In this document: positions 3,517-29,727 of the stretch, one piece after another | Numbering within the stretch: position 1 is the first letter of the stretch | Layout of the letters: each line of letters begins with the position of its first letter | Assembly: GCA_021405325.1 (NCBI GenBank) | Contig: QWII01000106.1 | Coordinates: forward strand, 1 to 34,186 | Length of the DNA stretch: 34,186 nucleotides | Reading direction: 5' to 3' | DNA from: Caldilinea sp. CFX5 | GTDB taxonomy: Bacteria > Chloroflexota > Anaerolineae > Caldilineales > Caldilineaceae | Made by a program: the position numbers and the translations under genes | The notes under the pieces: model-generated | Told to the model about the DNA's origin: nothing | Seen by the model: the letters and a program-made list of their open reading frames with translations, nothing else | Database searches by the model: none

Positions 3517-4718
3517 CTCACACCTGGTCGAACTGGTCCGGCAGCGTGACCTGCGCGCCACGCACTGTTGCCCTGCCAACCGACGAAACCGCCATCATCA
3601 CTCTGATCAAGCAAGCCGCCGCCGAACAGACAACCGTGCGCGTCGCTGGCACGGGCCATTCCTTTACGCCGCTCTGTGCGTCGGCTGGCGTGTTGATATC
3701 GCTGGATGGATTGCAAGGGGCGGTGTCCACCGATCACGAAACGGCGACCTTTTGGGCCGGCACGAAGTTACACCAGGTCGGCGATCCGCTCTGGGTAGCA
3801 GGGCTGGCGATGGCGAACATGGGTGATATTGACCGCCAAGCGTTAGCGGGCGCTATCAGCACCGGCACGCATGGCACTGGCCCCACGTTGGGTAACATTG
3901 CCACCCAAGTTGTCGGGCTGCGCCTGGCGCTGGCTTCCGGTGAGCTTGTCGATTGTTCACCAACCCAAGCGCCGGAACTTTTCAAGGCGGCACAGGTTTC
4001 GTTGGGTGTGCTGGGGATCATCACCCAAATCACCTTGCGTGGCCTACCCGCTTACCGTCTACACGAACGCACTTGGGTAGCCAGTTTTGACGAGTGCATG
4101 GCGCAGTTGGCTGGGTTGATTACCAACAACCGTCACTTTGAATTTTTCTGGGTGCCGAGCGAAGATGTTTGCGCCATGAAAACGCTCAACCCTACGACGG
4201 CGGAAACCCTCGAATCACCCAGTCAGCCAGTGATCACAGGCCGTTTAGCGCGGTACGTGCGCGATGAAAAAATCGACCGCAGCTATCGCATCTTCCCCTC
4301 GGAACGTAATCTCAAATTTAATGAGACCGAGTTTGCCGTACCAGCGGTGAATGGGCCTGATTGTCTACGGGAGATTCGCGAACTCATGCAGCGGCGCTAC
4401 CCGGCTGTCCTCTGGCCGATTGAGTACCGCACCCTAGCCGCCGATGACATTCCCCTCAGTCCAGCCTATGGGCGCGCAACGGTGACGATCTCCGTTCACC
4501 AGGCGGCGGAATTGCCCTATCAGCCCTTCTTTGCCGACGTGGAAGCCATCTTTCGCAACCACCAGGGCCGCCCCCACTGGGGCAAGATTCACACGCACAC
4601 TGCCCGTGAATTAGCGGCGCTCTACCCGGCTTGGGCCGCCTTTCAAACGGTGCGCGCCCAGGTTGACCCCGCTGGTTGCTTTTTGAATGAACATTTGCGG
4701 ACTATTTTGCTTGATTAG
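3513..4718 (+). CDS. FAD-linked oxidoreductase of the aldonolactone/alditol oxidase family
   Basis: This 401-residue VAO-type flavoenzyme has an N-terminal FAD-binding domain with VRVAGTGHSF. The His at about residue 49 is the position used for covalent FAD attachment in L-gulono-/D-arabinono-lactone oxidases and alditol oxidase. GDIDRQALAGAISTGTHGTG is the FAD diphosphate loop. The C-terminal ALO domain ends with PHWGKIHTHT (HWGK at about 355-358), a family signature near the active site. It probably oxidises a sugar lactone or polyol with O2 or another acceptor. It overlaps the upstream membrane protein gene by 4 bases, which suggests joint expression. The exact substrate cannot be told from sequence. 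Confidence 0.85.
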   Translation: MTHTWSNWSGSVTCAPRTVALPTDETAIITLIKQAAAEQTTVRVAGTGHSFTPLCASAGVLISLDGLQGAVSTDHETATFWAGTKLHQVGDPLWVAGLAMANMGDIDRQALAGAISTGTHGTGPTLGNIATQVVGLRLALASGELVDCSPTQAPELFKAAQVSLGVLGIITQITLRGLPAYRLHERTWVASFDECMAQLAGLITNNRHFEFFWVPSEDVCAMKTLNPTTAETLESPSQPVITGRLARYVRDEKIDRSYRIFPSERNLKFNETEFAVPAVNGPDCLREIRELMQRRYPAVLWPIEYRTLAADDIPLSPAYGRATVTISVHQAAELPYQPFFADVEAIFRNHQGRPHWGKIHTHTARELAALYPAWAAFQTVRAQVDPAGCFLNEHLRTILLD

Positions 4719-7127: not shown

Positions 7128-7156
7128 TTGACCGCTCACCGCTTTTGGCATATACT
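7128..7156 (+). promoter_or_regulatory. Promoter of the VapBC-like operon
   Basis: TTGACC at 7128-7133 and TATACT at 7151-7156 are separated by 17 bp. They are followed by AAAAAGGAGG and the antitoxin ATG at 7187. Confidence 0.65.
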
Positions 7157-7186
7157 CTGGATCGGGTGAGAAAAAGGAGGGTTGCC

Positions 7187-7624
7187 ATGAGTAATCGCAC
7201 TGTGGAGCAGGTGAAAGCGTTGATCACCGCCGATCTGTCAGTGGTGGAAAAGGCGCAGTTGATTGAGTGGCTAGGCGCTGGTCTGGGCCAGGAATTGATG
7301 GCTGATACACCGCTTCAACAACGTGTTGCCGGTGTCGATGAGTACAAGGGAATGCACCGGAACGGAACGAATGATTTCGCCAAAACAGACGAAGCGGTGC
7401 AGCCGCGCGAAATTCCGTGGGAAGAACAGCCGTGGACTGCGGAAGAGTTACGCGAACTCATGCGCCCTGATCCAAAGAGTGGCGCTGAGATCGCTGCCAT
7501 GATCGAATCTGGTGAAGTGGATACTAGCGTATGGGCGGCAATGGATATACCAGATGTAGTTGAATGGGTACAAGAGTTGCGCCGTCGAGAACGCATCGAA
7601 CGGGGTTTAGAAGAGAATGGTTAA
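7187..7624 (+). CDS. Antitoxin-like protein paired with a PIN toxin remnant
   Basis: This 145-residue acidic protein starts MSNRTVEQVKALITADLSVV, with a helical N-terminal part (VVEKAQLIEWLGAGLGQEL). A Trp/Glu/Pro-rich middle follows (EIPWEEQPWTAEELRELMRP), then a charged C-terminal helix (ELRRRERIERGLEENG). AAAAAGGAGG sits 8 bases before ATG 7187, which decides the start. It overlaps the downstream PIN frame by 8 bases, the usual antitoxin-toxin arrangement. I infer a VapB-like antitoxin from this context; no named DNA-binding fold is obvious. Its toxin has been internally deleted, so the antitoxin is an orphan here. Confidence 0.65.
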   Translation: MSNRTVEQVKALITADLSVVEKAQLIEWLGAGLGQELMADTPLQQRVAGVDEYKGMHRNGTNDFAKTDEAVQPREIPWEEQPWTAEELRELMRPDPKSGAEIAAMIESGEVDTSVWAAMDIPDVVEWVQELRRRERIERGLEENG

Positions 7625-8910: not shown

Positions 8911-10341
8911 ATGAAAGTCAAGCTGATCCTGCCCGCCCTCACCGAGGCCAAGAGTCCGCACTGGCGGCCCATCAAATATTCCCTTTTTCCACCACTGGGG
9001 TTGGCGACCCTGGCCGGCTACCTGGCGGCTGATGACGAGATTGAACTGCAAGATGAACATGTCGAAACGCTCAAGCTGGACGATGAGCCGGATCTGGTGG
9101 TGATTCAGGTCTATATCACCTCTGCTTTTCGTGCCTATGCCCTGGCCGATCACTACCGGCGCAAAGGCGCACATGTCTGCTTGGGCGGTCTCCATGTGAC
9201 TTCGCTACCGGAGGAAGCGGCCAACTATGCCGATACGATTTTCCTGGGACCGGGCGAAGATACCTGGCCCCAATTTCTGGCGGACTTCCGGGCCGGGCGA
9301 CCAGGCAAGCGCTACCAATCCCGGCTGCGCACTCTGGAACAGCTACCACCGATCCGCCGCGATCTGATCAAGCGACGGCTTTATCTGGTGCCGAACTCGA
9401 TTGTCGTTTCGCGGGGCTGTCCGCATGTGTGCGACTTTTGTTATAAGGAAGCCTTTTTCCAGGGCGGCAAATCTTTTTATACCCAGACAGTTGACGCGGC
9501 GCTGGCGGAGATTGATCGATTGCCTGGTCGCCATCTCTACTTTCTGGATGATCATCTCTTTGGCAACGCTCGTTTTGCCACTGCGCTCTTTGACGGCATG
9601 AAAGGGATGGGACGGCTCTGGCAGGCTGCGGGGACAGTGAAATCTGTCTTGCAACCAGACCTGTTGGAAAAGGCGGTGGCATCCGGTCTGCGCAGTCTCT
9701 TTGTCGGGTTTGAGACGCTCAACCCGGCCAATCTGACGGCGCAACGCAAATACCAGAACTTGAACCGGGATTACGGTGCGGCCATCCGTCGCCTGCATGA
9801 CCTGGGCGTCATGATCAACGGCAGCTTTGTCTTCGGCATGGATGACGACGACACCACTGTCTTTGACCGCACCGTCGAATGGGCGATTGAACAGGGCATC
9901 GAAACGGCTACCTTTCATATCCTCACGCCCTACCCCGGCACAGCTCTTTATGAACGGATGGCGACGCAAAACCGTCTCCTCCACGGCAACTGGGATCTCT
10001 ATGACACTCGTCACACCGTCTTTCAACCCAAACAGATGACACCCACCGAACTCGAAGCCGGTTACTGGCGCGCCTATCATGAGTTCTACCGCTGGTCGGC
10101 CATCTGGCGTGGGGCGAACGCCAAAAGCAGCCTCACGGCGCAGGCACGTCATATCGCCTACGCCGCCGGCTGGAAGAAATTCGAGCCGTTATGGGATTGG
10201 CTCATTCGAGCAAAGCGGGTGACGCAAGCGTTACCGGTGCTGGAAACGGTGCTGGATGGATTGGGCAGAAAGCCGCGGCAAGCGCAAGTCACTCCAATTG
10301 CGATCGCTCCGCCAAGCCAACCAGTGATTGAAGGAGAGTAG
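8911..10341 (+). CDS. B12-binding-domain radical SAM protein
   Basis: This 476-residue protein has an N-terminal cobalamin-binding Rossmann-like domain (residues about 1-140, with FPPLGLATLAGYLAADDE and LGGLHVTSLPEEA). It is followed by a radical SAM barrel whose CxxxCxxC motif is CPHVCDFC at residues 170-177. SVLQPDLLEKAVASGLRSLF and VGFETLNP are typical later strands. The C-terminus is helical and of unknown role. Such enzymes methylate or rearrange unactivated carbons, often in lipids or natural products; the substrate cannot be told. GGAGG seven bases before ATG 8911 supports the start. A 29-residue membrane peptide gene follows 13 bases after the stop. Confidence 0.88.
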   Translation: MKVKLILPALTEAKSPHWRPIKYSLFPPLGLATLAGYLAADDEIELQDEHVETLKLDDEPDLVVIQVYITSAFRAYALADHYRRKGAHVCLGGLHVTSLPEEAANYADTIFLGPGEDTWPQFLADFRAGRPGKRYQSRLRTLEQLPPIRRDLIKRRLYLVPNSIVVSRGCPHVCDFCYKEAFFQGGKSFYTQTVDAALAEIDRLPGRHLYFLDDHLFGNARFATALFDGMKGMGRLWQAAGTVKSVLQPDLLEKAVASGLRSLFVGFETLNPANLTAQRKYQNLNRDYGAAIRRLHDLGVMINGSFVFGMDDDDTTVFDRTVEWAIEQGIETATFHILTPYPGTALYERMATQNRLLHGNWDLYDTRHTVFQPKQMTPTELEAGYWRAYHEFYRWSAIWRGANAKSSLTAQARHIAYAAGWKKFEPLWDWLIRAKRVTQALPVLETVLDGLGRKPRQAQVTPIAIAPPSQPVIEGE

Positions 10342-12158: not shown

Positions 12159-12252
12159 AAAATCAGTAAAAATTACGAGAATTGAGCCGCTCAACCATCG
12201 ACAAAGACGATCATCATATGCTGATAATCTATACAATCTCGTAATTTAGTTG

Positions 12253-12258
12253 TATAAT
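12253..12258 (+). promoter_or_regulatory. Probable -10 box of the SARP/MalT-like regulator
   Basis: TATAAT at 12253-12258 is a perfect -10. A weak -35 (TATACA, 12230-12235) lies 17 bp upstream. The regulator's ATG is at 12351, leaving an untranslated leader of about 85 nt. Confidence 0.5.
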
Positions 12259-12350
12259 TTGCTGGCATCCCGTAATCGAAATGGCTTTCTTGTCCGACAT
12301 TGCTTGTACTAGTGACGGTCCTATGGTTCGCGTTTGTGGAGCATCCGTTT

Positions 12351-15300
12351 ATGAGTTACCAGGTTACGCGCACAAAAATTGTTTTGCCCAGACGTCGCTC
12401 CGATCTTTTGTCGCGCCCACGTTTAGTCAATCTACTGGAAGACCTGCTTGATTTTCGACTGGTTATTCTAATCGCACCGGCCGGATATGGCAAAACTTTT
12501 CTCCTGGTTGACTTTGCCCACCACCTGCAATGGCCGGTTTGTTGGTATGCACTCGATGCCCTCGATCGCGATGCCTATCGTTTCTGTAGCCATTTCATTG
12601 CCGCCATTCAGCAAAAATTCCCGGCCTTTGGGCAAGCTTCTCTGGCTGCTTTGCAGAGCATGGCAATTGAGCAACGACCGCTGGATCAGTTGGTGACAAC
12701 GATTGTCAACGAACTCTATGACCATGTGCAAGAGCATTTTGTGTTGGTGTTGGATGATTTCTATTTAATTGATGAGAACCCGGAGATCAACGCCTTTATC
12801 AGCCAGTTCATCCAACAGGTCGATGAAAATTGTCACCTGATCATCGCCTCACGCCGGTTGTTGAGTCTGCCGGACATGGCGCTCATGGTAGCGCGCGGCT
12901 ACGTCGGCGGTCTCGATTTTGAGGATCTCGCCTTTGCCGTCGATGAGCTACAGGAATTGAGCGCTAAAAATTTCAACCAGAGCATCTCGGCGGCAGACGC
13001 AAAGATACTGATTGAGGCCACCGACGGCTGGATCATTGGCTTGCTGCTCTCAACTCAGAGTAAGCTGCGCAATATTTCTGGCCGGATGCGGCACATGCGC
13101 GCCTCCGGCATCAATTTGTATGATTATCTAGCGGAACAGGTGCTCAACCAACAACCGCCGGTGATCCAGGAATTTCTGTTGCGCACGTCACTTTTGGAAG
13201 AATTTGACGCCGACTTATGCGCCGCCGTCTTGACTGAGGCGTGGTTGCCCCCTACCGGCGACTGGCAAGATCTAATTGACGAAGTCCTGCGGCGTAACCT
13301 CTTTGTCTTGTCACTGGGCGATAACGCCGCCTCCTTGCGCTACAACTACGTTTTTCAAGAATTTTTACAGCGGCGCATTGCGCGTGAACGCCCGACCGAA
13401 GAGCGCACCATTCTTGAACGGCTGGCCGCTTTGTACCAAGCGCGGGAAGAGTGGGAAAAAACCCATTACATGTTGACCCGGTTGGGCGAACCGCGCCAGG
13501 TGGTTGCCCTGATTGAACAGACTGGTGTTACGCTCTTGGAAGCAGGGCGTTTTTCTTTGTTGGGAAGCTGGTTGAAAGAGCTGCCGGTGGAAACCATCCG
13601 TAGCTACCCAATGCTGCTGATGGTGGAAGGCTTTGTCAAAGCGCGCCAGGGGGATGTCAAGGCTGGTTTAGTCTTGTTAGATGAGGCGCTGGCGGCCCAA
13701 TGGCCGGCAGATGCGGAAGTAGCGCGCGCGTATGCGCTCACACGGCGGTCCGTGGTTCATCGGTGGCTAGGCAATTATCAGGCATCACTGCATGATGTGG
13801 AAGCCGCCTTTCAGCATATCGCCCATTTTGACCAACAAGCGGTTGCCATCCTCTCCTTAAGCGCCATCGTCCAACGAACAAAAGGGTTTACCTTGTCCTA
13901 CTATATGGGCAAGACCGAAGAGGGCGCTTTCTGGCTGGAACGAGCAGTCGAGACCTATCGCCTGCTCAATCAGACACAAAACCTGGCCTTAACCTATTCC
14001 GATTTAGCGGTTGCTTATCTAAACACAGGCCGTTATCGCGCGGCGCAACATCTTTTTCAGGATGCTCTCGCCATCTGGCGCAACTTGAATGACATCGCTG
14101 AACAAGCAAGCACGCTCAATAATCTCGGTTACTTACATCATTTATTAGGTAAATATGAAGAGGCGTTGGCGTTTCTAGACGACACGTATGAATGCGCCAA
14201 ACGGAGCGGTTATTTGCGTGTTCATGCCTATGCTCTCGCCAGCATGGGCGATCTTTGTATGGATCTAGGACTTTGGGAGGTGGCGCAGGCGCTTTACCAG
14301 GACGCAATGGTCGTAGCACAGCGTTTGAGCGAACGCTTTTTGCTGGTCACTTTGGAATTGGCCCAAGCCAAAGTGGCGGCCCAGCAAAAGGAATGGAGCA
14401 AAGTTTTTACCGCGCTGGATGCCGCCGGTCATTTGGTGGTGGATGTCAAGGCGAGCGCTGAATGGGGGCTGTATCAACTGACTTTTGGTTACTGTCATCT
14501 GTTACAGGGGAAGGCCAAAGAGGCGATTGGCGCGCTGCAAAATGCTTGTGACTATTTCCAGACCAGCGACCAACCAATCGAGGAAGCGAATGCGCGCTTG
14601 CTGCTCTCTTTTGCCCACAACCAATCCAAACAAATAGAGTCGGCGCAAGAAGCATTACAACGTGCGCTGGATCTGGCCTTTGCCCTCGAAAGCCGTTACC
14701 CGCTCTTGTTTGCCTTGCGCGCAATCCAAAGCTATCTGGAAGATAAACGAACAGTAGCGTTAGATGAACGGCTTCTGAGCCTGAATTTGGAGCTGACTAA
14801 GATTGAAGAAACCATTCCCCAGATCAATCGACGCCTACGCCAGCAAGCGCCACCATTGTTGGCCGGCTTGCTCACCAAAGCGCCCCACTTGGTAATTCGC
14901 GCCTTAGGGCGGGCGGAAGTGGTCTTTAATAACAAAGTTCTCACCAATAGCGACTGGCAAACGTTGGTCTCACGCGATCTGCTGCTCTGTCTATTGGCGC
15001 ACCCGCGTGGTCTTTCCAAAGATGAGATCGGGCTGCTCTTCTGGCCCGATGCCTCCCCCTCTGAGTTGAAAACCCGTTTTAAGAACGCCATTTACCGGCT
15101 ACGGAGCGCAGTGAAAGAGGACGTTGTTCTCTTTGAAAATGATTTTTATACCTTTAACCGCACCATCGACTATGAATACGATGTCGAACTATTCTTGCGG
15201 AATGTGGAAAAGGCGCAACAGGCGGCCACGGCTGCCGAGCGGATGAGCGCTTGTCAGGCTGCTCTTGCGCTCTATCGCGGCCCCTATTTGCCGGAAGTCG

Positions 15301-15608
15301 AAGCTAGTTGGACCTGGAGCGAACGTGAGCGTTTGAGCCGGCTCTTTGCCGAATGCGCCTTGACTCTGAGCCAGTCACAACTCGATCAAGCCGATTATAA
15401 CGGGGCGCTGGAGAGCGTACAGCGTGTTCTCGCTGAAGATTCCTGTCAGGAAGATGCCCACCGTCTTGCCATGCGCATCTATGCCGCCCTGGGCAATCGC
15501 GCCGCCATTGCACGCCAGTACGCCCAGTGTGAGCAAGCCCTGCTGACCGAAATCGACGCTTCCCCTTCGCCCCAAACTGCGGATCTCTATCAGGCGTTGA
15601 TGCGTTAA
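12351..15608 (+). CDS. Large MalT-like STAND ATPase regulator with TPRs and a C-terminal SARP (winged helix plus BTAD) end
   Basis: This 1085-residue regulator has Walker A APAGYGKT at 42-49, Walker B FVLVLDDFYLI at about 130-140, and MalT-like NACHT/winged-helix regions to about 400. A long TPR array follows (for example ALTYSDLAVAYLNTGRYRAA and ASTLNNLGYLHHLLGKYEEA). At about 845-930 comes an OmpR-type winged helix (HPRGLSKDEIGLLFWPDAS, RFKNAIYRLR), then the bacterial transcriptional activator domain to the end (ALYRGPYLPEVEASWTWSER). MalT ends in a LuxR HTH; here a SARP module replaces it. STAND proteins switch on ATP and an inducer, often sensed by the TPRs. ATG 12351 is chosen over TTG 12300: GGAG lies about 10 bases before it and MSYQVTRTKIVLP is the usual start. 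Direct repeats fitting a SARP operator lie 83 bp after the stop. Confidence 0.88.
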   Translation: MSYQVTRTKIVLPRRRSDLLSRPRLVNLLEDLLDFRLVILIAPAGYGKTFLLVDFAHHLQWPVCWYALDALDRDAYRFCSHFIAAIQQKFPAFGQASLAALQSMAIEQRPLDQLVTTIVNELYDHVQEHFVLVLDDFYLIDENPEINAFISQFIQQVDENCHLIIASRRLLSLPDMALMVARGYVGGLDFEDLAFAVDELQELSAKNFNQSISAADAKILIEATDGWIIGLLLSTQSKLRNISGRMRHMRASGINLYDYLAEQVLNQQPPVIQEFLLRTSLLEEFDADLCAAVLTEAWLPPTGDWQDLIDEVLRRNLFVLSLGDNAASLRYNYVFQEFLQRRIARERPTEERTILERLAALYQAREEWEKTHYMLTRLGEPRQVVALIEQTGVTLLEAGRFSLLGSWLKELPVETIRSYPMLLMVEGFVKARQGDVKAGLVLLDEALAAQWPADAEVARAYALTRRSVVHRWLGNYQASLHDVEAAFQHIAHFDQQAVAILSLSAIVQRTKGFTLSYYMGKTEEGAFWLERAVETYRLLNQTQNLALTYSDLAVAYLNTGRYRAAQHLFQDALAIWRNLNDIAEQASTLNNLGYLHHLLGKYEEALAFLDDTYECAKRSGYLRVHAYALASMGDLCMDLGLWEVAQALYQDAMVVAQRLSERFLLVTLELAQAKVAAQQKEWSKVFTALDAAGHLVVDVKASAEWGLYQLTFGYCHLLQGKAKEAIGALQNACDYFQTSDQPIEEANARLLLSFAHNQSKQIESAQEALQRALDLAFALESRYPLLFALRAIQSYLEDKRTVALDERLLSLNLELTKIEETIPQINRRLRQQAPPLLAGLLTKAPHLVIRALGRAEVVFNNKVLTNSDWQTLVSRDLLLCLLAHPRGLSKDEIGLLFWPDASPSELKTRFKNAIYRLRSAVKEDVVLFENDFYTFNRTIDYEYDVELFLRNVEKAQQAATAAERMSACQAALALYRGPYLPEVEASWTWSERERLSRLFAECALTLSQSQLDQADYNGALESVQRVLAEDSCQEDAHRLAMRIYAALGNRAAIARQYAQCEQALLTEIDASPSPQTADLYQALMR

Positions 15609-15690
15609 CATACTAGCACAATTGTCACAGGACTCATCGCCTAATACGCACATCGGCGGCCATGCACCTACGTCGTTTAGCGTATTTTCG

Positions 15691-15734
15691 CAATGAGCCT
15701 CGAATGAGCCTGTTTTGAGCCTGCTTTGAGCGCC
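15691..15734 (+). promoter_or_regulatory. Four direct repeats at exact 11-bp spacing: probable SARP operator
   Basis: TGAGC starts at 15694, 15705, 15716 and 15727, each in an 11-bp unit of the form nWWTGAGC(C/G)(T/C)n. SARP regulators such as ActII-ORF4 and DnrI are known to bind tandem heptamers (TCGAG-like) with an 11-bp period. The array lies between the SARP-ended regulator and the small peptide gene. About 9 bp further is a possible promoter (TTCTGT 15744-15749, 17 bp, GACAAT 15767-15772). Confidence 0.65.
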
Positions 15735-15905
15735 CGCTGATGCTTCTGTTGATGCCTGCCCCGTGCGACAATGGGGACATCAGACACAAAGCAAGAAGCG
15801 ATGGCGCAACGACCGGTACGAGAGCAACGTACCTACCTGAATCACTGTTGTCGGCCATCAAGCATAGATGTTGAACGAATAGATAACCCAGAAGGAGATT
15901 CTACA

Positions 15906-16025
15906 ATGAAACAGTATCTGAACACCCTGCAAAGCAAGAAGCAAACCCGCCTGATCGTTGCGTTGACTGCGCTAGTCCTCTTTGTTCTGGGCGCTGGTGC
16001 GCCGGCAATTGGCGGCGGTCGCTAA
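15906..16025 (+). CDS. 39-residue peptide with a signal-peptide-like helix and a short Gly-rich tail
   Basis: A GAAGGAG ribosome binding site precedes ATG 15906. The peptide has a basic start (MKQYLNTLQSKKQTR), a hydrophobic helix (LIVALTALVLFVLGAGA) and ends APAIGGGR. A signal-peptidase-type A-x-A (APA) stands five residues before the end, so export and cleavage would release IGGGR. This layout is like the precursors of small signalling peptides (PapR/Phr type), but that is an inference; it could equally be a small membrane-anchored protein. It sits between the SARP operator and the DUF5317 gene, 68 bp before the latter, and is likely the first gene of the regulated operon. Confidence 0.6.
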   Translation: MKQYLNTLQSKKQTRLIVALTALVLFVLGAGAPAIGGGR

Positions 16026-16093
16026 ACCGTTGCGCGGATGAACATTATGGCTCTGCTTGCTTTCCGCACCACGTTCTGCAAGTGAGCTGATCT

Positions 16094-16681
16094 GTGATTT
16101 TACTGATTGCGGTTGTTCTCGGTCTGCTAGCCGGTTGGGTGCGAGCCTGGTATGGTGGCCGACACTTTGCAATACCAGATTTGCGCTTACCCTGGCTAGC
16201 AGCCGTCGCCTTCGTACCCCAATGGCTGGCTTTTTTCGGGGCAGCCACCCGCTCCCGCTTTTCGGATCGCGGCGCGGCCATTGCCCTGGTGACATCACAA
16301 CTGTTGTTGTCCGCCTTTGGTCTGGCGAATCGCCGGCACCCGGCTTTCAAATTATTAACCTTGGGCTTGTTGTTGAATCTGGCTGTCATTACGGCCAACG
16401 GCGGTTTGATGCCCATTAGCCCGGAGACGGTGCGCCGTCTTCTCCCCGATGGCGCGGACAAGCGCTGGCAAACCGGCAAACGCTTTGGTCATACGAAAGA
16501 CCGTGTGCTGGCTGAAGCGGATACACGATTCGCCTGGTTGTCGGATCGTTTTATTCTGGCCGGCTGGCTTCCCAATCGGGTGGCCTATAGTGTTGGTGAT
16601 GTAGTGTTGGCTGTCGGCGCCTGTTGGTTTCTATGGGCTGCCGGTGGCGTACAATCGGATGAGTCGACTGTAGATCAATGA
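16094..16681 (+). CDS. DUF5317 family integral membrane protein
   Basis: This 195-residue protein has about five hydrophobic segments: the N-terminus (ILLIAVVLGLLAGWV), then PWLAAVAFVPQWLAFF, AIALVTSQLLLSAFGLA, FKLLTLGLLLNLAVI and a last one near VGDVVLAVGACWFLWAA. The segment VITANGGLMPISPETVRRLL between helices is the family hallmark. Function is unknown. It starts at GTG 16094 with only a weak ribosome binding site, which suggests translation coupled to upstream reading. It lies between a small exported-type peptide and an Os1348-like protein. If that peptide is processed or transported, this protein is a candidate for the membrane step, but nothing in its sequence shows a protease or transporter motif. 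Confidence 0.8.
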   Translation: MILLIAVVLGLLAGWVRAWYGGRHFAIPDLRLPWLAAVAFVPQWLAFFGAATRSRFSDRGAAIALVTSQLLLSAFGLANRRHPAFKLLTLGLLLNLAVITANGGLMPISPETVRRLLPDGADKRWQTGKRFGHTKDRVLAEADTRFAWLSDRFILAGWLPNRVAYSVGDVVLAVGACWFLWAAGGVQSDESTVDQ

Positions 16682-16696
16682 AAGTGTGAATCGCTC

Positions 16697-17059
16697 ATGA
16701 CTAGCTTGACGCGCTATCCGCAATCGATGAATTATGAAGTGATTGCTCATTCCCTGCCATTGGAAGGGGAGCAAACCACCACACGGAACAATGTCGAGAT
16801 CAATCGGCTGCTGACGGCGGCGGTGGTAAATCGGCGGTTTTGTCGCTTACTACTGAGTAACCCCCTGGCCGCGCTGACCGGCGGCTATCGGGGTGAGGCG
16901 TTCAACCTAAATCCGGGTGAAGTCAAGCGCATTAGTGCGATTCGGGCGACCTCGCTGCGTGATTTTGCCCTGCAACTCCTGGTTACGCTGGAGACAGACA
17001 ATCCGACCGAGGGGGCATATAGTCACGAGCGACAGAGTACAGCTATCTTTGCTGTATAA
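16697..17059 (+). CDS. Os1348/NHLP-clan-like small protein
   Basis: This 120-residue protein contains the segment NRLLTAAVVNRRFCRLLLSN, then PLAALTGGYRG, LNPGEVKRISAIRATSLRDF and ALQLL. That is the pattern of Os1348/nitrile-hydratase-leader-like (NHLP clan) proteins: LL...F...LL-NP-AAL-GY...L...E...I.A.SL.DFA..L. In some bacteria this fold serves as the leader of ribosomally made modified peptides; in others it stands alone. The tail after residue 95 (TDNPTEGAYSHERQSTAIFA) could be a core or simply a disordered end. It starts 15 bp after the DUF5317 stop and closes the operon before the terminator at 17204. No dedicated modifying enzyme is adjacent. Confidence 0.6.
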   Translation: MTSLTRYPQSMNYEVIAHSLPLEGEQTTTRNNVEINRLLTAAVVNRRFCRLLLSNPLAALTGGYRGEAFNLNPGEVKRISAIRATSLRDFALQLLVTLETDNPTEGAYSHERQSTAIFAV

Positions 17060-17203: not shown

Positions 17204-17259
17204 AAAAACCGACTACACAATCTTGCGTATGGTCAGTCCTGGTTGTGGTCGGTTTTTTT
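17204..17259 (+). terminator. Intrinsic terminator closing the peptide/DUF5317/Os1348 operon
   Basis: AAAAACCGAC (17204-17213) pairs with GTCGGTTTTT, and the stem extends through TACA/TGTG. The right arm ends in seven T (17253-17259). It lies about 145 bp after the Os1348-like gene and before the histidine kinase. I saw nothing else in 17060-17203. Confidence 0.75.
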
Positions 17260-17398: not shown

Positions 17399-18280
17399 TT
17401 GCATACTTTATCATCTGTCTCCACCGCACCCGAATCTATTGGGGAGAGAAATGGCTATCATCCGCAACCCGCATCGCTCACCCTTTTGCCTGGTTCTTCC
17501 CACATTGTTAGCGCGCCGCCGCTGATCGACCCGGATGCCAAACCGGGCGAACGGTTGCCCTATGCCAAGCCTAGCGACTATGGCGATGATTGGCAGACCA
17601 GCGGTATTCTCCATGACTTTAATAATTTACTGGCCATTATCCTCAGCCACACCAATATTGCCCTCTCTAAACTCCCCAACGATAGCCCGTTGCGCCCGAA
17701 TTTGGAACGGGCTATGCGCGCCACCCGTCGCGCCGCCGATCTCTCAAATCAACTGGCGCTCAACCTCAGCCGCCGCCAGGATGAGGTTGCTTTTTGTGAG
17801 CCGAATGTGGTGGTGCAAGAGGTAATCGATCTTTTGGAACCCAAAATCGCCGCAAAAGCTGAACTTGAGCAGCATTTAGCGGCTGATTTATTTGCCGTTG
17901 CCGTACCCCGTTTGCGTCTACAACAGGTGCTGATGAATTTGGTCTTGAATGCCGTGGAGGCGATCCAAGCGCCGCCTGGCCTGATCACCATTGTCACCAC
18001 CAACCGTTTTTTGGAAGTACAAGGCCCCTTCCGCTTGGGACAGCCGGAGTTGCCCACGGGGCAATATGTCATGCTCCAAGTGAGTGACACGGGGATCGGC
18101 ATGAACCAAGCCATGCTCAACAACATCTTTGAACCATATTTCACTACCAAAGCCACCGGCACCGGCGTTGGCCTCAGCACAACGGTCGGCATTGTTCACA
18201 CCTACCAAGGTGTTATGCAGGTCACCAGCACGCCTGGCGTCGGCTCCACCTTTCGCGTCTTTTTCCCGGCCCTAGAATGA
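17399..18280 (+). CDS. Sensor-less NtrB-type histidine kinase
   Basis: This protein of about 293 residues carries the H-box ILHDFNNLLAIILSHTNIAL (phospho-acceptor His), an N-box QQVLMNLVLNAVEAI, G1 VSDTGIGM, F-box IFEPYFTTK and G2 GTGVGLSTTVGIVHTY. It is thus a complete catalytic core without transmembrane or PAS domains. It must receive its signal through partners or its short N-terminus. The start is unclear: the only in-frame option upstream of the core is TTG 17399, with no ribosome binding site. A well-placed GGGGAGAGAA stands before an out-of-frame ATG (17450) that opens a 24-codon ORF. No response regulator is adjacent. It is separated from the upstream cassette by a terminator. Confidence 0.8.
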   Translation: MHTLSSVSTAPESIGERNGYHPQPASLTLLPGSSHIVSAPPLIDPDAKPGERLPYAKPSDYGDDWQTSGILHDFNNLLAIILSHTNIALSKLPNDSPLRPNLERAMRATRRAADLSNQLALNLSRRQDEVAFCEPNVVVQEVIDLLEPKIAAKAELEQHLAADLFAVAVPRLRLQQVLMNLVLNAVEAIQAPPGLITIVTTNRFLEVQGPFRLGQPELPTGQYVMLQVSDTGIGMNQAMLNNIFEPYFTTKATGTGVGLSTTVGIVHTYQGVMQVTSTPGVGSTFRVFFPALE

Positions 18281-23007: not shown

Positions 23008-23085
23008 AGTAAGACAGTGAGACAGTAAATCAGTGGATAGTGCTGTTTTGGCTGGCCTACTGACTTACTGTCTTACTGTCTTACT
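23008..23085. terminator. 27-bp palindrome between convergent genes, probable two-way terminator
   Basis: Arms 23008-23034 and 23059-23085 pair over 27 bp with two G/T-type mismatches and consist of repeated ACAGTAAG-like heptamers. The loop is 24 nt. The element starts right after the protease stop and reaches into the stop codon region of the EF-G-like gene. Confidence 0.65.
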
Positions 23086-25147
23086 AATGATGCTCTTGTT
23101 CTTCCTGCTTGAACTGGGCGATCACATCGGCGGCCAGGTTGCCCGGCACGGGATCATAGTGGTCGAATTCAATCGAGTAGAAGCCACGGCCCTGGGTCAT
23201 GGAGCGGAGTTCGGTGCTGTAGCGCAGGATCTCGGCCAGGGGCACAATGGCATGAATGATGGTGCGATTGCCCTTTTGTTCCATCCCCTGGACGCGGCCC
23301 CGGCGCGTGTTGAAATCACCCATGACATCACCCATGTATTCCTCAGGAACGGTGACATCGACGCGGTAGATTGGCTCTAACAAGACCGGCTTGGCTTGTT
23401 GAACCGCCAGTTTGAAGACTTCGCGCCCGGCGGTCTGGAAGGCAATGTCCTTGGAGTCCACCGGGTGTTCCTTGCCGTCAAAGACCACGGCCCGGATGCC
23501 GGTGACCGGGAAGCCGGCCAACACGCCGGTGGACATGACCTGGCGCACGCCCTTTTCAATCGAAGGCAGGTAGACGCCGCTAATGGCGCCGCCAAAGACC
23601 TCGCTCTTGTATTCAAAGTCGCCGCCCTGGAAGGGTTCGACGCGCATATGAACTTCGGCAAATTGACCGGCGCCGCCCGTCTGCTTCTTGTGGCGGTATT
23701 GGGCCGAAGCCGTGGCGCTCACCGTCTCCATGTAGGGCACTTTGGGGTCGTGGGTTTCAACCTTGACGCCAAACTTGGTCTCCAAGCGGCGGATTGCCAC
23801 ATCGACGTGGGTGTCGCCCATGCCTTGGAGCAGCGTCTGCTTGGTGGCGGTAACATTTTCGATCTTCAGCGTGGGATCTTCTTCGGTCAAGGCGTGGAGC
23901 GACGTGCCTAATTTGGCGCTGTCGGCTTGCGTGGCGGGCGCAATGGCAACGGAGAAGAGCGCCTGCGGATAGACCGGCGGCGCCACCTTGATGGCCGGAT
24001 CAGCCGATAGGGTGTCGCCCGTCAACACATGCTCCAACTTGGTAATGATGCCAATATCACCGGCGACCAATTCACTGACACCCTGCAACTCTTTGCCGCG
24101 GGCGCTGTTGAGGTTAGCAATGCGCAAACTTTGGCCGGTGCGGGTGTTGGTCAGTTGGCTATCTTTGGTGACAACGCCGGAGTAGACACGGATATAGCTC
24201 ATGCGCCCGACAAAGCGGTCGATAATCGTCTTGAAGACAACGGCGACCGGCGTACCGTTGGGGTCACTGGCTAATTCAATCTCGCCGTCGCCCTTGGCGG
24301 CGGTGATGGGGTGGGCGCTGGGGATCGGCACATAGCGACCGAGCGCTTGCAACAGGCGATCCATGCCGATGGCTTTGGTGGCGGCGCCGCAATAGATGGG
24401 CGCAATCTTGCCTTCGAGGACGCCCTTGCGTAGACCGGCGCGCACCTCTTCGGCTGTTAGCTCTTCGCCATCCAAATATTTCATAATCAACTCATCATCC
24501 GCTTCAGCGGCGGCTTCGACCATCGCCAGCCGCACAGCTTCCACCTCATCACGCATGGCATCAGGGATGGGCGCTTCTTTGCCATCCTTACCCATGTAGG
24601 CTTTCATGGTGACAAAGCTGACGACGCCTTGAAAATTTTCAGCGGAACCAATGGGGAGTTGCATGGGGATAAAGCGCACGTCGGTGAAGGTCTGCCGTAG
24701 GTCCTCAACCGTGCGCTGGAAGTTGGCATTCTCGCGATCCATCTTGTTGACAAAGATAATGCGCGGCTTCTTGCGTTCGTTGAGATACTCCCACGCCAAC
24801 TCGGTGCCGACTTCGACGCCGGCCACGGCGTCCAGCACAAGCAGCGCCGCTTCAGCCACATGCAGCGCGCTGAGTACTTCGCCGACAAAATCCTGATAAC
24901 CGGGAACATCAATCAAGTTGATCTTTAACCCATCGACCTCGATTGGGATAATGGACTGGTTGATTGAAATCCCACGGCGTTGTTCTTCTGGGTCCCAATC
25001 GGAAACGGTTGAGCCATCTTCGACACGACCCATGCGCGAAGTGATCCCCATCTTCAATAACAAGGCTTCGGTCAAAGAAGTCTTGCCGGAACCACCGTGT
25101 CCAAGAATGGCAACATTGCGTATCTGATCGGTGCGAAACTTCGCCAT
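23084..25147 (-). CDS. Elongation factor G paralogue (EF-G2-like translational GTPase)
   Basis: This 687-residue protein has the full EF-G layout: a G domain (P-loop GHGGSGKT at 16-23, DVPGYQDF at 80-87, NKMD at 134-137), domain II (GTPVAVVFKTIIDRFVGRMS), domain III, domain IV (KKQTGGAGQFAEVHMRVEP, YKSEVFGGAISGVYLPSIEK) and domain V (YRVDVTVPEEYMGDVMGDFN, RRGRVQGME). The usual DTPGH has Tyr instead of His at residue 84, as in the EF-G2-like branch, so GTP hydrolysis may be slow or triggered differently. It is probably not the main translocase; a canonical fusA would sit in a str operon elsewhere. AAGGAGG precedes the ATG at 25147. Confidence 0.88.
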   Translation of the reverse strand: MAKFRTDQIRNVAILGHGGSGKTSLTEALLLKMGITSRMGRVEDGSTVSDWDPEEQRRGISINQSIIPIEVDGLKINLIDVPGYQDFVGEVLSALHVAEAALLVLDAVAGVEVGTELAWEYLNERKKPRIIFVNKMDRENANFQRTVEDLRQTFTDVRFIPMQLPIGSAENFQGVVSFVTMKAYMGKDGKEAPIPDAMRDEVEAVRLAMVEAAAEADDELIMKYLDGEELTAEEVRAGLRKGVLEGKIAPIYCGAATKAIGMDRLLQALGRYVPIPSAHPITAAKGDGEIELASDPNGTPVAVVFKTIIDRFVGRMSYIRVYSGVVTKDSQLTNTRTGQSLRIANLNSARGKELQGVSELVAGDIGIITKLEHVLTGDTLSADPAIKVAPPVYPQALFSVAIAPATQADSAKLGTSLHALTEEDPTLKIENVTATKQTLLQGMGDTHVDVAIRRLETKFGVKVETHDPKVPYMETVSATASAQYRHKKQTGGAGQFAEVHMRVEPFQGGDFEYKSEVFGGAISGVYLPSIEKGVRQVMSTGVLAGFPVTGIRAVVFDGKEHPVDSKDIAFQTAGREVFKLAVQQAKPVLLEPIYRVDVTVPEEYMGDVMGDFNTRRGRVQGMEQKGNRTIIHAIVPLAEILRYSTELRSMTQGRGFYSIEFDHYDPVPGNLAADVIAQFKQEEQEHH

Positions 25148-28015: not shown

Positions 28016-28810
28016 ATGCCGAACAGCAACCGTGTCGCCTTAGTCACCGGCTCTCGTCGCGGGATTGGCCGCGCCATCGCCTTGACCCTGGCCCGTGACG
28101 GTTATGATATTGTCGTCAACGACTATGCCATTGACCACCTCGCCGAACAGACCGCCGCCGATATTCGCGCCTTAGGCCGCCAGGCCCATTTGCTTGCCGC
28201 TGACCTGGGCGACACCGCCTCGACCAAGGCATTGGTACAGGGAACCGTCGCCCACTTTGGCCGGCTCGACGTGCTGGTCAACAACGCCGCCACTTGGGAG
28301 TGGGATGATTTTGTCGATGTGCCGGAAGCGCACTGGGATAAAATGTTGGCGGTCGATCTCAAGGGGCCGTTTATCTGTTCGCAGGAAGCGGCCAAACAGA
28401 TGATTGCGCAGGCCACTGATCAGCGACGGGGCGGCGCGATTGTCAGCATTAGCTCGGTCCACAGCTACCGCGCTTGGCCGCAGGATACAGTCTATGGCAT
28501 CTGCAAAGCGGGCATCATCCGCCTGACCGAGAGCATGGCCTTTGAATTGGGGCCGCACGGCATTCGGGTCAACGCCGTTGCGCCCGGCTATATCGACAGT
28601 CGCGTCCCTAACCCCAACGAGCCGCCCATTGGTCAACCGGACTATGCCAAGCCGGTCATTCCCGTCACCCCCATGCGCCGCATTGGCTTGCCGGAGGATA
28701 TTGCTGAAGCGGTGGCCTTCTTTGTGTCGGATCGGGCGTCGTTTATTACGGGGCAATGTTTGTTGGTCGATGGCGGGTTCTTGTTGGGGGGCACACCCCA
28801 AGGAGGGTAA
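28016..28810 (+). CDS. Short-chain dehydrogenase/reductase (classical SDR)
   Basis: This 264-residue SDR has the cofactor motif TGSRRGIG (11-18), the NNAAT form of NNAG (VLVNNAATWEWD), the active-site Ser in VSISSVHSYRA, and Tyr/Lys in VYGICKAG. The C-terminus ends with the usual GQCLLVDGGFLLGG. Substrate is unknown, but the gene opens a cluster with a PhyH dioxygenase, another SDR and an enolase-superfamily enzyme, which suggests sugar-acid or polyol catabolism. AGGAGG before ATG 28016 is a strong ribosome binding site. TATAAT at 27960-27965 is the likely promoter. Confidence 0.88.
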   Translation: MPNSNRVALVTGSRRGIGRAIALTLARDGYDIVVNDYAIDHLAEQTAADIRALGRQAHLLAADLGDTASTKALVQGTVAHFGRLDVLVNNAATWEWDDFVDVPEAHWDKMLAVDLKGPFICSQEAAKQMIAQATDQRRGGAIVSISSVHSYRAWPQDTVYGICKAGIIRLTESMAFELGPHGIRVNAVAPGYIDSRVPNPNEPPIGQPDYAKPVIPVTPMRRIGLPEDIAEAVAFFVSDRASFITGQCLLVDGGFLLGGTPQGG

Positions 28811-28814
28811 ACCG

Positions 28815-28841
28815 ATGGACTTTGCAATACAAAACAAGTGA
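28815..28841 (+). pseudogene. Eight-codon remnant resembling the start of an SDR gene
   Basis: A perfect AAGGAGGG ribosome binding site, within the end of the preceding SDR, stands seven bases before ATG 28815. The frame reads MDFAIQNK and stops at TGA. The SDR at 29875 begins MDLQNKT, and many SDRs begin MDxxLxxK. This could be the start of a deleted SDR gene, or a chance micro-ORF. Confidence 0.3.
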
Positions 28842-28872
28842 TAGATTGCACACAATAGGAGCAACGCAGCTT

Positions 28873-29727
28873 ATGGAAAGAATGGGCTTTTACCCACCCC
28901 CGGCCAAAATCATCCCCAACCAGGAACAACTGGGGCAGTTGGAACGCCGTTTACAGTTCCACCCCAGCGCCACTACCAATCCCAAGGCGTTAACCCGCGA
29001 CCAGATTGCAACGTACAACCGGGAAGGCTATCTCAAAGGCTTCCGCATCTTTAGCGCCGACGAGATGGTCGAACAGCGCCGCCGCTTTGACGAAGTGCTG
29101 GCCGCCGTGTTGGCCGCCGGCGGCAACAGCTACTCGATCATTTCGGCCCACATAAAATATGGCTTTGTCTATGACCTGCTCACCCACCCGCGCATTGTCG
29201 CCTATGTCAAAGATATTCTGGGCGACGAAGTTGTCGGCTGGGGGGCGCACTACTTCTGTAAGTTGCCGCGCGACGGCAAGATTGTCTCTTGGCACCAGGA
29301 TGCCAGCTTCTGGCCGTTGACCCCGTCAAAAACCGTCACGGTCTGGCTGGCAATTGATGACGCCGACCAGGAAAATGCTTGTATGCGCTTTGTCGCCGGT
29401 TCGCACCACCTGGGCCACCTCACCTACCGGATGAGCGAGGACGCCGAGGCCAGTGTCTTGAATCAAACCGTGGACAATGTCGAGCAATTCGGCACGATTG
29501 TCTATGATGAACTCAAAGCCGGCGAGATTTCCTTGCATAGTGACCTACTATTGCACGGTTCACTGGCGAACCAGTCGGATCGACGGCGCTGTGGCTTGAC
29601 GCTGCGCTATTGTGCGACCGATGTTTGGAGTGACCCCTCCTATGGCTGGAATCGTGAAGGGGTGATCATCAGCGGCAGCGATCCGAGCGGGCACTGGGCG
29701 AATCCGGCGCGACCGAGTAACAATTGA
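28873..29727 (+). CDS. Phytanoyl-CoA dioxygenase (PhyH) family Fe(II)/2-oxoglutarate oxygenase
   Basis: This 284-residue oxygenase has the iron-binding H-x-D in SWHQDASFWPLTPS (His 141, Asp 143) and the distal His in LHSDLLLHGSLANQ (about 228), followed by an Arg-rich strand (RRRCGLTLRYCA) that would hold 2-oxoglutarate. ENACMRFVAGSHHLGHL is the typical PhyH strand after the facial triad start. In bacteria these enzymes hydroxylate diverse small molecules. ATG 28873 is chosen over upstream in-frame codons because AGGAGC lies 10 bases before it and the extra stretch overlaps the SDR. The gene follows the SDR by 62 bp in the same cluster. Confidence 0.85.
   Translation: MERMGFYPPPAKIIPNQEQLGQLERRLQFHPSATTNPKALTRDQIATYNREGYLKGFRIFSADEMVEQRRRFDEVLAAVLAAGGNSYSIISAHIKYGFVYDLLTHPRIVAYVKDILGDEVVGWGAHYFCKLPRDGKIVSWHQDASFWPLTPSKTVTVWLAIDDADQENACMRFVAGSHHLGHLTYRMSEDAEASVLNQTVDNVEQFGTIVYDELKAGEISLHSDLLLHGSLANQSDRRRCGLTLRYCATDVWSDPSYGWNREGVIISGSDPSGHWANPARPSNN

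Follow-up and report, generated by a model that had tools for sequence, protein, structure and literature searches.

Introduction

AfsR of Streptomyces unites a Streptomyces antibiotic regulatory protein (SARP) module with nucleoside triphosphatase (NTPase) and TPR modules and has afsS as an activated target, and SARP targets carry direct repeats with a period of 11 or 22 bp, the 3′ repeat lying 8 bp from the -10 element (PMC10936776). In the RRNPPA systems of Firmicutes a TPR regulator is followed by the gene of a short exported propeptide, and multiple or repeated propeptides (multi-pheromone propeptides) are known (PMC9765709). The pheromones Listeria pPplA and enterococcal cAD1 are produced via signal peptidase II (LspA) followed by a further protease (PMC4379056). 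Here we compare with these systems a cassette of Caldilinea sp. CFX5 (Chloroflexota; Caldilineales; assembly GCA_021405325.1) that encodes a STAND/TPR/SARP regulator, a micro-peptide, a DUF5317 membrane protein and an Os1348-like protein. It lies on contig QWII01000106.1, of which positions 1 to 34,186 of the forward strand were analyzed (the window, 34,186 nucleotides). At the sequence level, the evidence for the cassette, its peptide gene and the SARP-like promoter is solid. A peptide-signaling system with the peptide as the signal is our preferred explanation, at about even odds. Loci and genomes are designated below by L and G numbers, respectively.

The Cassette Is Conserved in Relatives

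All parts lie on the plus strand. A sigma70-like promoter identified by consensus match only (TATACA-17-TATAAT, 12230..12258, 10 of 12 positions) precedes the gene of the 1085-residue regulator (12351..15608), which was taken to start at the ATG at 12351 and to stop at 15608, the mechanical open reading frame (ORF) opening earlier, at a TTG at 12300. It is followed by an operator-like array (15694..15756), the micro-peptide gene (15906..16025), the DUF5317 gene (16094..16681) and the gene of the Os1348-like protein of the NHLP clan (16697..17059, 120 residues). A predicted intrinsic terminator closes the series at about 17204..17258 (hairpin -19.2 kcal/mol, z -3.04; unlisted by a simple scan that considers loops of 3-8 only). 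Every part named in the initial annotation, from the regulator to the terminator, is present in the window.

In a sample of 46 genomes of the order, DUF5317 was present in 11. At all 11 loci a small ORF of the micro-peptide type precedes it and an Os1348-like gene lies downstream, and the regulator lies upstream at 10, the contig of the remaining one (L095) starting just before DUF5317. Among 400 Chloroflexota genomes DUF5317 was present in 119; about 30 of the best matches were inspected directly and the remainder by profile only. The recurrence of this gene order in relatives argues for an arrangement beyond chance, and the loss of small ORF and synteny that the initial annotation had named as fatal to its proposal was not observed.

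The regulator gave matches at E<=1e-95 in 33 of the 400 genomes, below 1e-190 in 20 of these, with scoring confined to the top two candidates of each genome. In 23 of the 24 carrier genomes the orthologue scores far above other homologues, and in 22 of the 24 it stands at the cassette (split in two in G001 and G427). In G266 it is on a different contig, and G409 has no close orthologue (best match 1e-81). The regulator of the window groups with loci from the same order.

A profile of 26 peptides (A3) returned 19 matches at E<=1e-5 in 16 of the 400 genomes, a search that was not blind since 13 of these 16 had supplied profile sequences (G068, G347 and G409 being new). DUF5317 is present in all 16 genomes and adjoins 18 of the 19 matches; strong peptide matches apart from DUF5317 are nearly absent. 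The sole exception is a peptide-like match (L204, G437:C134:12375-12482, E 5.8e-7) located away from DUF5317 and from any cassette. Weaker matches, down to E 0.01, occurred in 17 further genomes, mostly within long frames, and are probably mostly due to chance; those of G105, G170 and G274 sit right after the regulator orthologue.

The Regulator and the Promoter of the Micro-Peptide

The N-terminal half of the regulator is a MalT-like, STAND-type NTPase (NCBIfam MalT, 5.5e-62, 210 bits, under the cut-off of 537). MalT senses maltotriose. TPRs follow (TPR_12, 4e-22), and the C-terminus contains a BTAD match (1.1e-18), that is, the BTA domain which together with an OmpR-type DNA-binding domain marks a SARP; the DNA-binding half gave no separate Pfam match, and the last 241 residues align to AfsR (8hvr) at 4.4e-6 over residues 31-240. 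As in AfsR, SARP, NTPase and TPR modules are joined in one protein, but the SARP module is C-terminal instead of following the order SARP-NOD-TPR. The combination of a TPR domain with a propeptide-like gene just downstream corresponds to the RRNPPA layout (PMC9765709), the export of the peptide being predicted here. Unlike the RRNPPA transcription factors, the regulator has no N-terminal helix-turn-helix and carries a STAND NTPase and a SARP module; it belongs to Chloroflexota and has a membrane protein in its operon.

Upstream of the peptide gene, direct repeats of the form TGAGCC / TGATGC[CT] with a period of 11-12 bp extend from 15694 to 15756, with TGAGCC at 15694, 15705 and 15716 (spacing 11, 11), and within the window the core pattern occurs only at this array when up to 3 mismatches are allowed. 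Repeats TGA(N)GC[CT] in steps of 11-12 bp were found ahead of the peptide gene at 20 of 23 loci as against 10 of 6900 dinucleotide shuffles, a contrast somewhat flattered by the pattern having been drawn from the same sequences. In the window, a -10-like hexamer (GACAAT, 15767..15772) begins 10 nucleotides 3′ of the last GCC. At this offset at least 4 of 6 matches to TATAAT were found in 24 of 28 promoters, and other offsets within 3-21 reach at most 7; in this count L093, anchored on a wrong repeat, is scored as a miss and L122 is replaced by the three units of L201. With a 12-bp unit, the distance to the -10 element becomes 8 bp, as given for SARP targets (PMC10936776). The direct repeats and the fixed -10 offset resemble that layout, with a period that is mostly 12 bp in place of 11 or 22 bp.

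Each of the three peptide genes of L201 has its own repeat copy, and in G266 repeats precede the peptide even though that genome encodes its regulator orthologue on a separate contig. In L203, L256 and L257 both repeats have changed alike, to TTTTGCATCC. A whole-genome search with the operator pattern gave 27 places in 17 of the 24 carrier genomes (16 at cassettes, in 14 genomes, and 11 elsewhere) against none for the reversed control pattern; it found none in 7 carriers, and the cassette repeats of G130, G038 and G047 went unmatched.

In two genomes, operator copies stand before genes for RHS/SpvB-like, secreted-looking giant proteins of 4067 and 3382 residues (L248:377-12580 and L249:2398-12546), possible members of a regulon, and further non-cassette copies precede a kinase and, as read by eye, a LuxR-type gene. 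These targets are too few for a regulon to be called.

The Micro-Peptide

In the window, a ribosome-binding site read from the sequence (AAGGAG, 15892..15897) precedes a gene for 39 residues with a basic N-terminus, a hydrophobic helix, the motif LGAGAP and the tail AIGGGR. The same plan recurs in relatives: a basic N-terminus, a hydrophobic stretch, GxGAP or SAGAP and a Gly-rich tail of 5-16 residues. Conservation is highest in the hydrophobic helix and in GAP, the latter being invariant among the 26 aligned peptides, an invariance that is partly circular because most peptides were chosen by eye for GAP.

Nine pairs of peptides were compared for selection, with the synonymous rate (dS) not estimable in 3. 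All nucleotide changes between the copies of L098 and L102 are silent (4/4 and 9/9), and the nonsynonymous rate over dS (dN/dS) amounts to 0.04/0.48 in L101, 0.13/1.05 in L093, 0.05/0.38 for L096-L097 and 0.23/0.74 for L108-L115. The micro-peptide gene is therefore translated, and purifying selection acts on it.

Charges are unevenly distributed over the peptide set, with 66 Lys/Arg and 7 Asp/Glu on the N-terminal side versus 12 and 19 in the tail, a bias that suggests insertion in an N-in/C-out orientation. This bears on a circuit of the AfsR/AfsS kind, in which the small protein would work inside the cell as an effector of the regulator instead of signaling to it. AfsR shares the three modules and has afsS as its activated target (PMC10936776), and the promoter geometry is the same; a hydrophobic peptide with N-in/C-out charge bias fits such an effector poorly, and we regard this alternative as distinctly unlikely. 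The cassette also differs from AfsR-AfsS in that its target is a predicted membrane-inserted peptide accompanied by DUF5317 and Os1348-like genes, in that its repeats lie mostly 12 bp apart, and in belonging to another phylum.

The tail is the variable part: 22 different tails occur among the 26 peptides, and in all four two-copy loci the tails are identical within the locus, the N-terminal parts differing in 2 of them. Two loci without DUF5317 still have the regulator together with a similar promoter and a Gly-rich peptide in altered form. The L258 peptide (4316-4438, minus strand), MNNKLFLYTPSDGGVGGRRSPSDGGVGGRRSPSDGGAGGR, lacks the hydrophobic helix and contains the tail three times. This suggests that the tail is the functional portion, and it recalls the RRNPPA propeptides that contain several pheromones (PMC9765709). 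In L254 (3435-3897) the regulator is followed by a Cys-containing peptide of 38 residues without a helix in which the Gly-rich tail is kept; the next frame, interrupted by the contig end, resembles an ABC ATPase gene on visual inspection. The identity of tails within a locus does not extend to L201 (2056-3754), which has three promoter-peptide units in tandem before a single DUF5317 gene and in which the three peptides have differing tails.

DUF5317 as a Candidate Processing Factor

The membrane protein of the window has five long predicted helices and matches PF17248 as its sole Pfam family (8.4e-30, 104.2 bits, gathering cut-off 25). Two of its motifs, LxD151 and SxGD169, resemble without being identical to the VxD and FNxAD motifs of LspA, both pairs being readable as hxD and [SN]xxD patterns. 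Both Asp are present in 35 of 37 DUF5317 and 27 of 27 LspA sequences, and their spacing is 18 in 31 of the 35 DUF5317 sequences with both, equal to that of Asp118-Asp136 in Staphylococcus aureus LspA. Two DUF5317 models align weakly to LspA (5dir) over the last three helices, in second-look alignments only, in which unrelated helical proteins score alike; Foldseek alone gave no LspA match at E<=0.001. Comparison of the profiles gave a probability of 27 with full and 9.6 with trimmed alignments, and a score of 25.5, where 60 block shuffles did not exceed 20.4 and reversed profiles scored 14.9 and 17.3. In a sequence search of the PDB with the DUF5317 profile there was one match, at E 0.11, which was not LspA. 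Three motifs invariant in the LspA alignment (DxxxK, NxGxAFG and GGAxxNxxDR) are absent from that of DUF5317, which has five helices, forms a separate Pfam family and is accompanied by a peptide that has no Cys where a lipobox would have one.

The two Asp in LspA-like motifs together with the weak structural match indicate that DUF5317 may release the tail; as an LspA-like protease, it is a tentative candidate, more doubtful than probable. No paper on DUF5317 was found in the literature searched, whose coverage largely leaves out subscription journals and preprints.

GAP is mostly absent where DUF5317 is missing. When 44 loci were classed by eye for GAP and for DUF5317 adjacency, a GAP peptide was present in 29 of the 32 with DUF5317 (exceptions L189, L262 and L263) versus 1 of the 12 without (L269), a Fisher value of 5.2e-7 that ignores kinship. 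L264 (divergent layout) and L204 (unlinked, G437) were excluded, and L201 was scored as GAP since one of its three peptides has it. In the well-supported, 29-row clade of the regulator tree the loci without DUF5317 comprise one group of five rows (support 90/78) and, separately, L254, which reduces these cases to only about two events. DUF5317 also stands beside HD-GYP genes, without a peptide, in five loci scanned, and it is fused to a major facilitator superfamily (MFS)-type transporter domain next to HD-GYP genes in L207:496-2415 and L208:322-2307; its role is thus wider than the cassette.

These data also accommodate an uncleaved regulatory membrane protein: the micro-peptide would bind DUF5317, or a kinase or HD-GYP protein, and the regulator would sense something else. 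Such a protein would agree with the conservation centered on helix and GAP, with the loss of GAP together with DUF5317 and with DUF5317 occurring beside HD-GYP genes without the peptide. It agrees less with L258 and L254, which keep the Gly-rich tail in peptides without a helix, or with tails that differ among genomes and are identical within two-copy loci, and it seems rather unlikely.

The Os1348-Like Protein and Downstream Genes

An Os1348-like gene occurs in 28 of 29 loci scanned, the exception, L204, having no cassette. The protein of the window matches NF038399 at 2.6e-6 (27.4 bits, cut-off 40), as do 21 of 24 members at E<=0.001, and shares the NHLP-clan domain with the Os1348 family, which has been linked to antibiotic activity (PMC7726476). 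On these grounds it could be read as the precursor of a ribosomally synthesized and post-translationally modified peptide (RiPP) whose product is the signal, the second source proposed by the initial annotation. The members consist, however, of one conserved domain, many stopping right after it, with no variable core, and the PDB profile match reached only E 0.025. The signal probably does not come from the Os1348-like protein; the RiPP reading is very improbable, and this candidate was dropped. No RiPP enzymes were noticed in the cassettes, in which no search aimed at modification enzymes was made, and the cassette companions are signaling genes. Upstream of the cassette, the window contains a gene for a B12-binding radical-SAM protein (8911-10341).

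Signaling enzymes follow the cassette in many relatives. Downstream proteins scanned in 10 of the 16 loci L188-L203 comprise 9 HD-GYP proteins (HD_5), some with PAS/GAF domains, and a PAS histidine kinase in L199. Within Caldilineales, the window, L092 (split frame), L095 and L101 have a short kinase gene after the cassette, and L093 has a same-strand ORF of 681 residues with a weaker kinase match; L094, L098 and L100 have no downstream same-strand ORF of at least 110 residues. The kinase of the window (17399..18280, plus strand; HisKA/HATPase, no sensor domain recognized) lies outside the span of the initial annotation. It sits beyond the terminator and, therefore, co-transcription with the cassette is not claimed.

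That all ten scanned downstream proteins are signaling enzymes, in a survey without an aimed search for exporters or modification enzymes, speaks against the peptide being a bacteriocin or toxin with DUF5317 or the Os1348-like protein for immunity or export. Short Gly-rich peptides, and the Cys-containing peptide of L254 ahead of an ABC ATPase-like frame, would suit that function, which we nevertheless hold to be quite improbable.

A Proposed Peptide-Signaling Circuit

In the peptide-signaling reading, the SARP domain of the regulator would bind the repeats and recruit RNA polymerase, and the peptide would insert N-in/C-out by means of its hydrophobic helix. The variable tail, GAPAIGGGR in the window, would then be cut free at a predicted site L-[GS]-x|G-A-P, with DUF5317, in the role of an LspA-like aspartyl protease, as the likeliest enzyme, and the tail or its uptake product would act on the TPR domain of the regulator, closing a feedback loop with nearby HD-GYP or kinase proteins as further outputs. 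Export, processing and sensing of the peptide are inferred. Lipoprotein-derived pheromones arise from the signal peptide itself (PMC4379056), whereas here the proposed signal is the tail after the helix.

The initial annotation had assigned the peptide or an Os1348-derived product as signal, the membrane protein as its processing or transport factor and the TPR array as receptor. Three features lend weight to this scheme: the cassette has a regulator of its own, a promoter of SARP type precedes the peptide gene, and the membrane protein shows traits that would suit a processing factor. The Os1348-like source gains no support. Downstream signaling enzymes, peptide genes in tandem and the LspA-like traits of DUF5317 are additions to the scheme.

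In its most specific form, the reading would define a new class of quorum sensing by peptides in Chloroflexota, with the STAND/TPR/SARP protein receiving the pheromone inside the cell and DUF5317 serving as an intramembrane aspartyl protease of LspA-like type that cuts L-[GS]-x|GAP in a dedicated micro-propeptide. This proposal is speculative and, on balance, unlikely to hold in full. Among the matches listed in the literature searched, with the coverage given above, no description of peptide signaling by such a regulator in Chloroflexota was found. If the peptide-signaling reading is true, a neighboring gene provides STAND/SARP regulators with a concrete candidate ligand, DUF5317 gains a testable biochemical role and the operator permits the prediction of target genes from sequence; if DUF5317 is a protease, its occurrence beside HD-GYP genes elsewhere would represent an unrecognized family of signaling proteases.

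Other Genes in the Window

An Rfam scan of the window gave no matches. A TrmB-like methyltransferase gene precedes the regulator in the opposite orientation, and a weak match to SLATT_2, below the Pfam cut-off, lies at 7145-7624. XisH and XisI genes occupy 361-1157, and a chlorinating-enzyme-like gene (28756-29727) adjoins a short-chain dehydrogenase/reductase (SDR) gene. The closest relative of a paralogue of EF-G (23084-25147) is found in a Caldilineaceae metagenome-assembled genome, with 69% identity.

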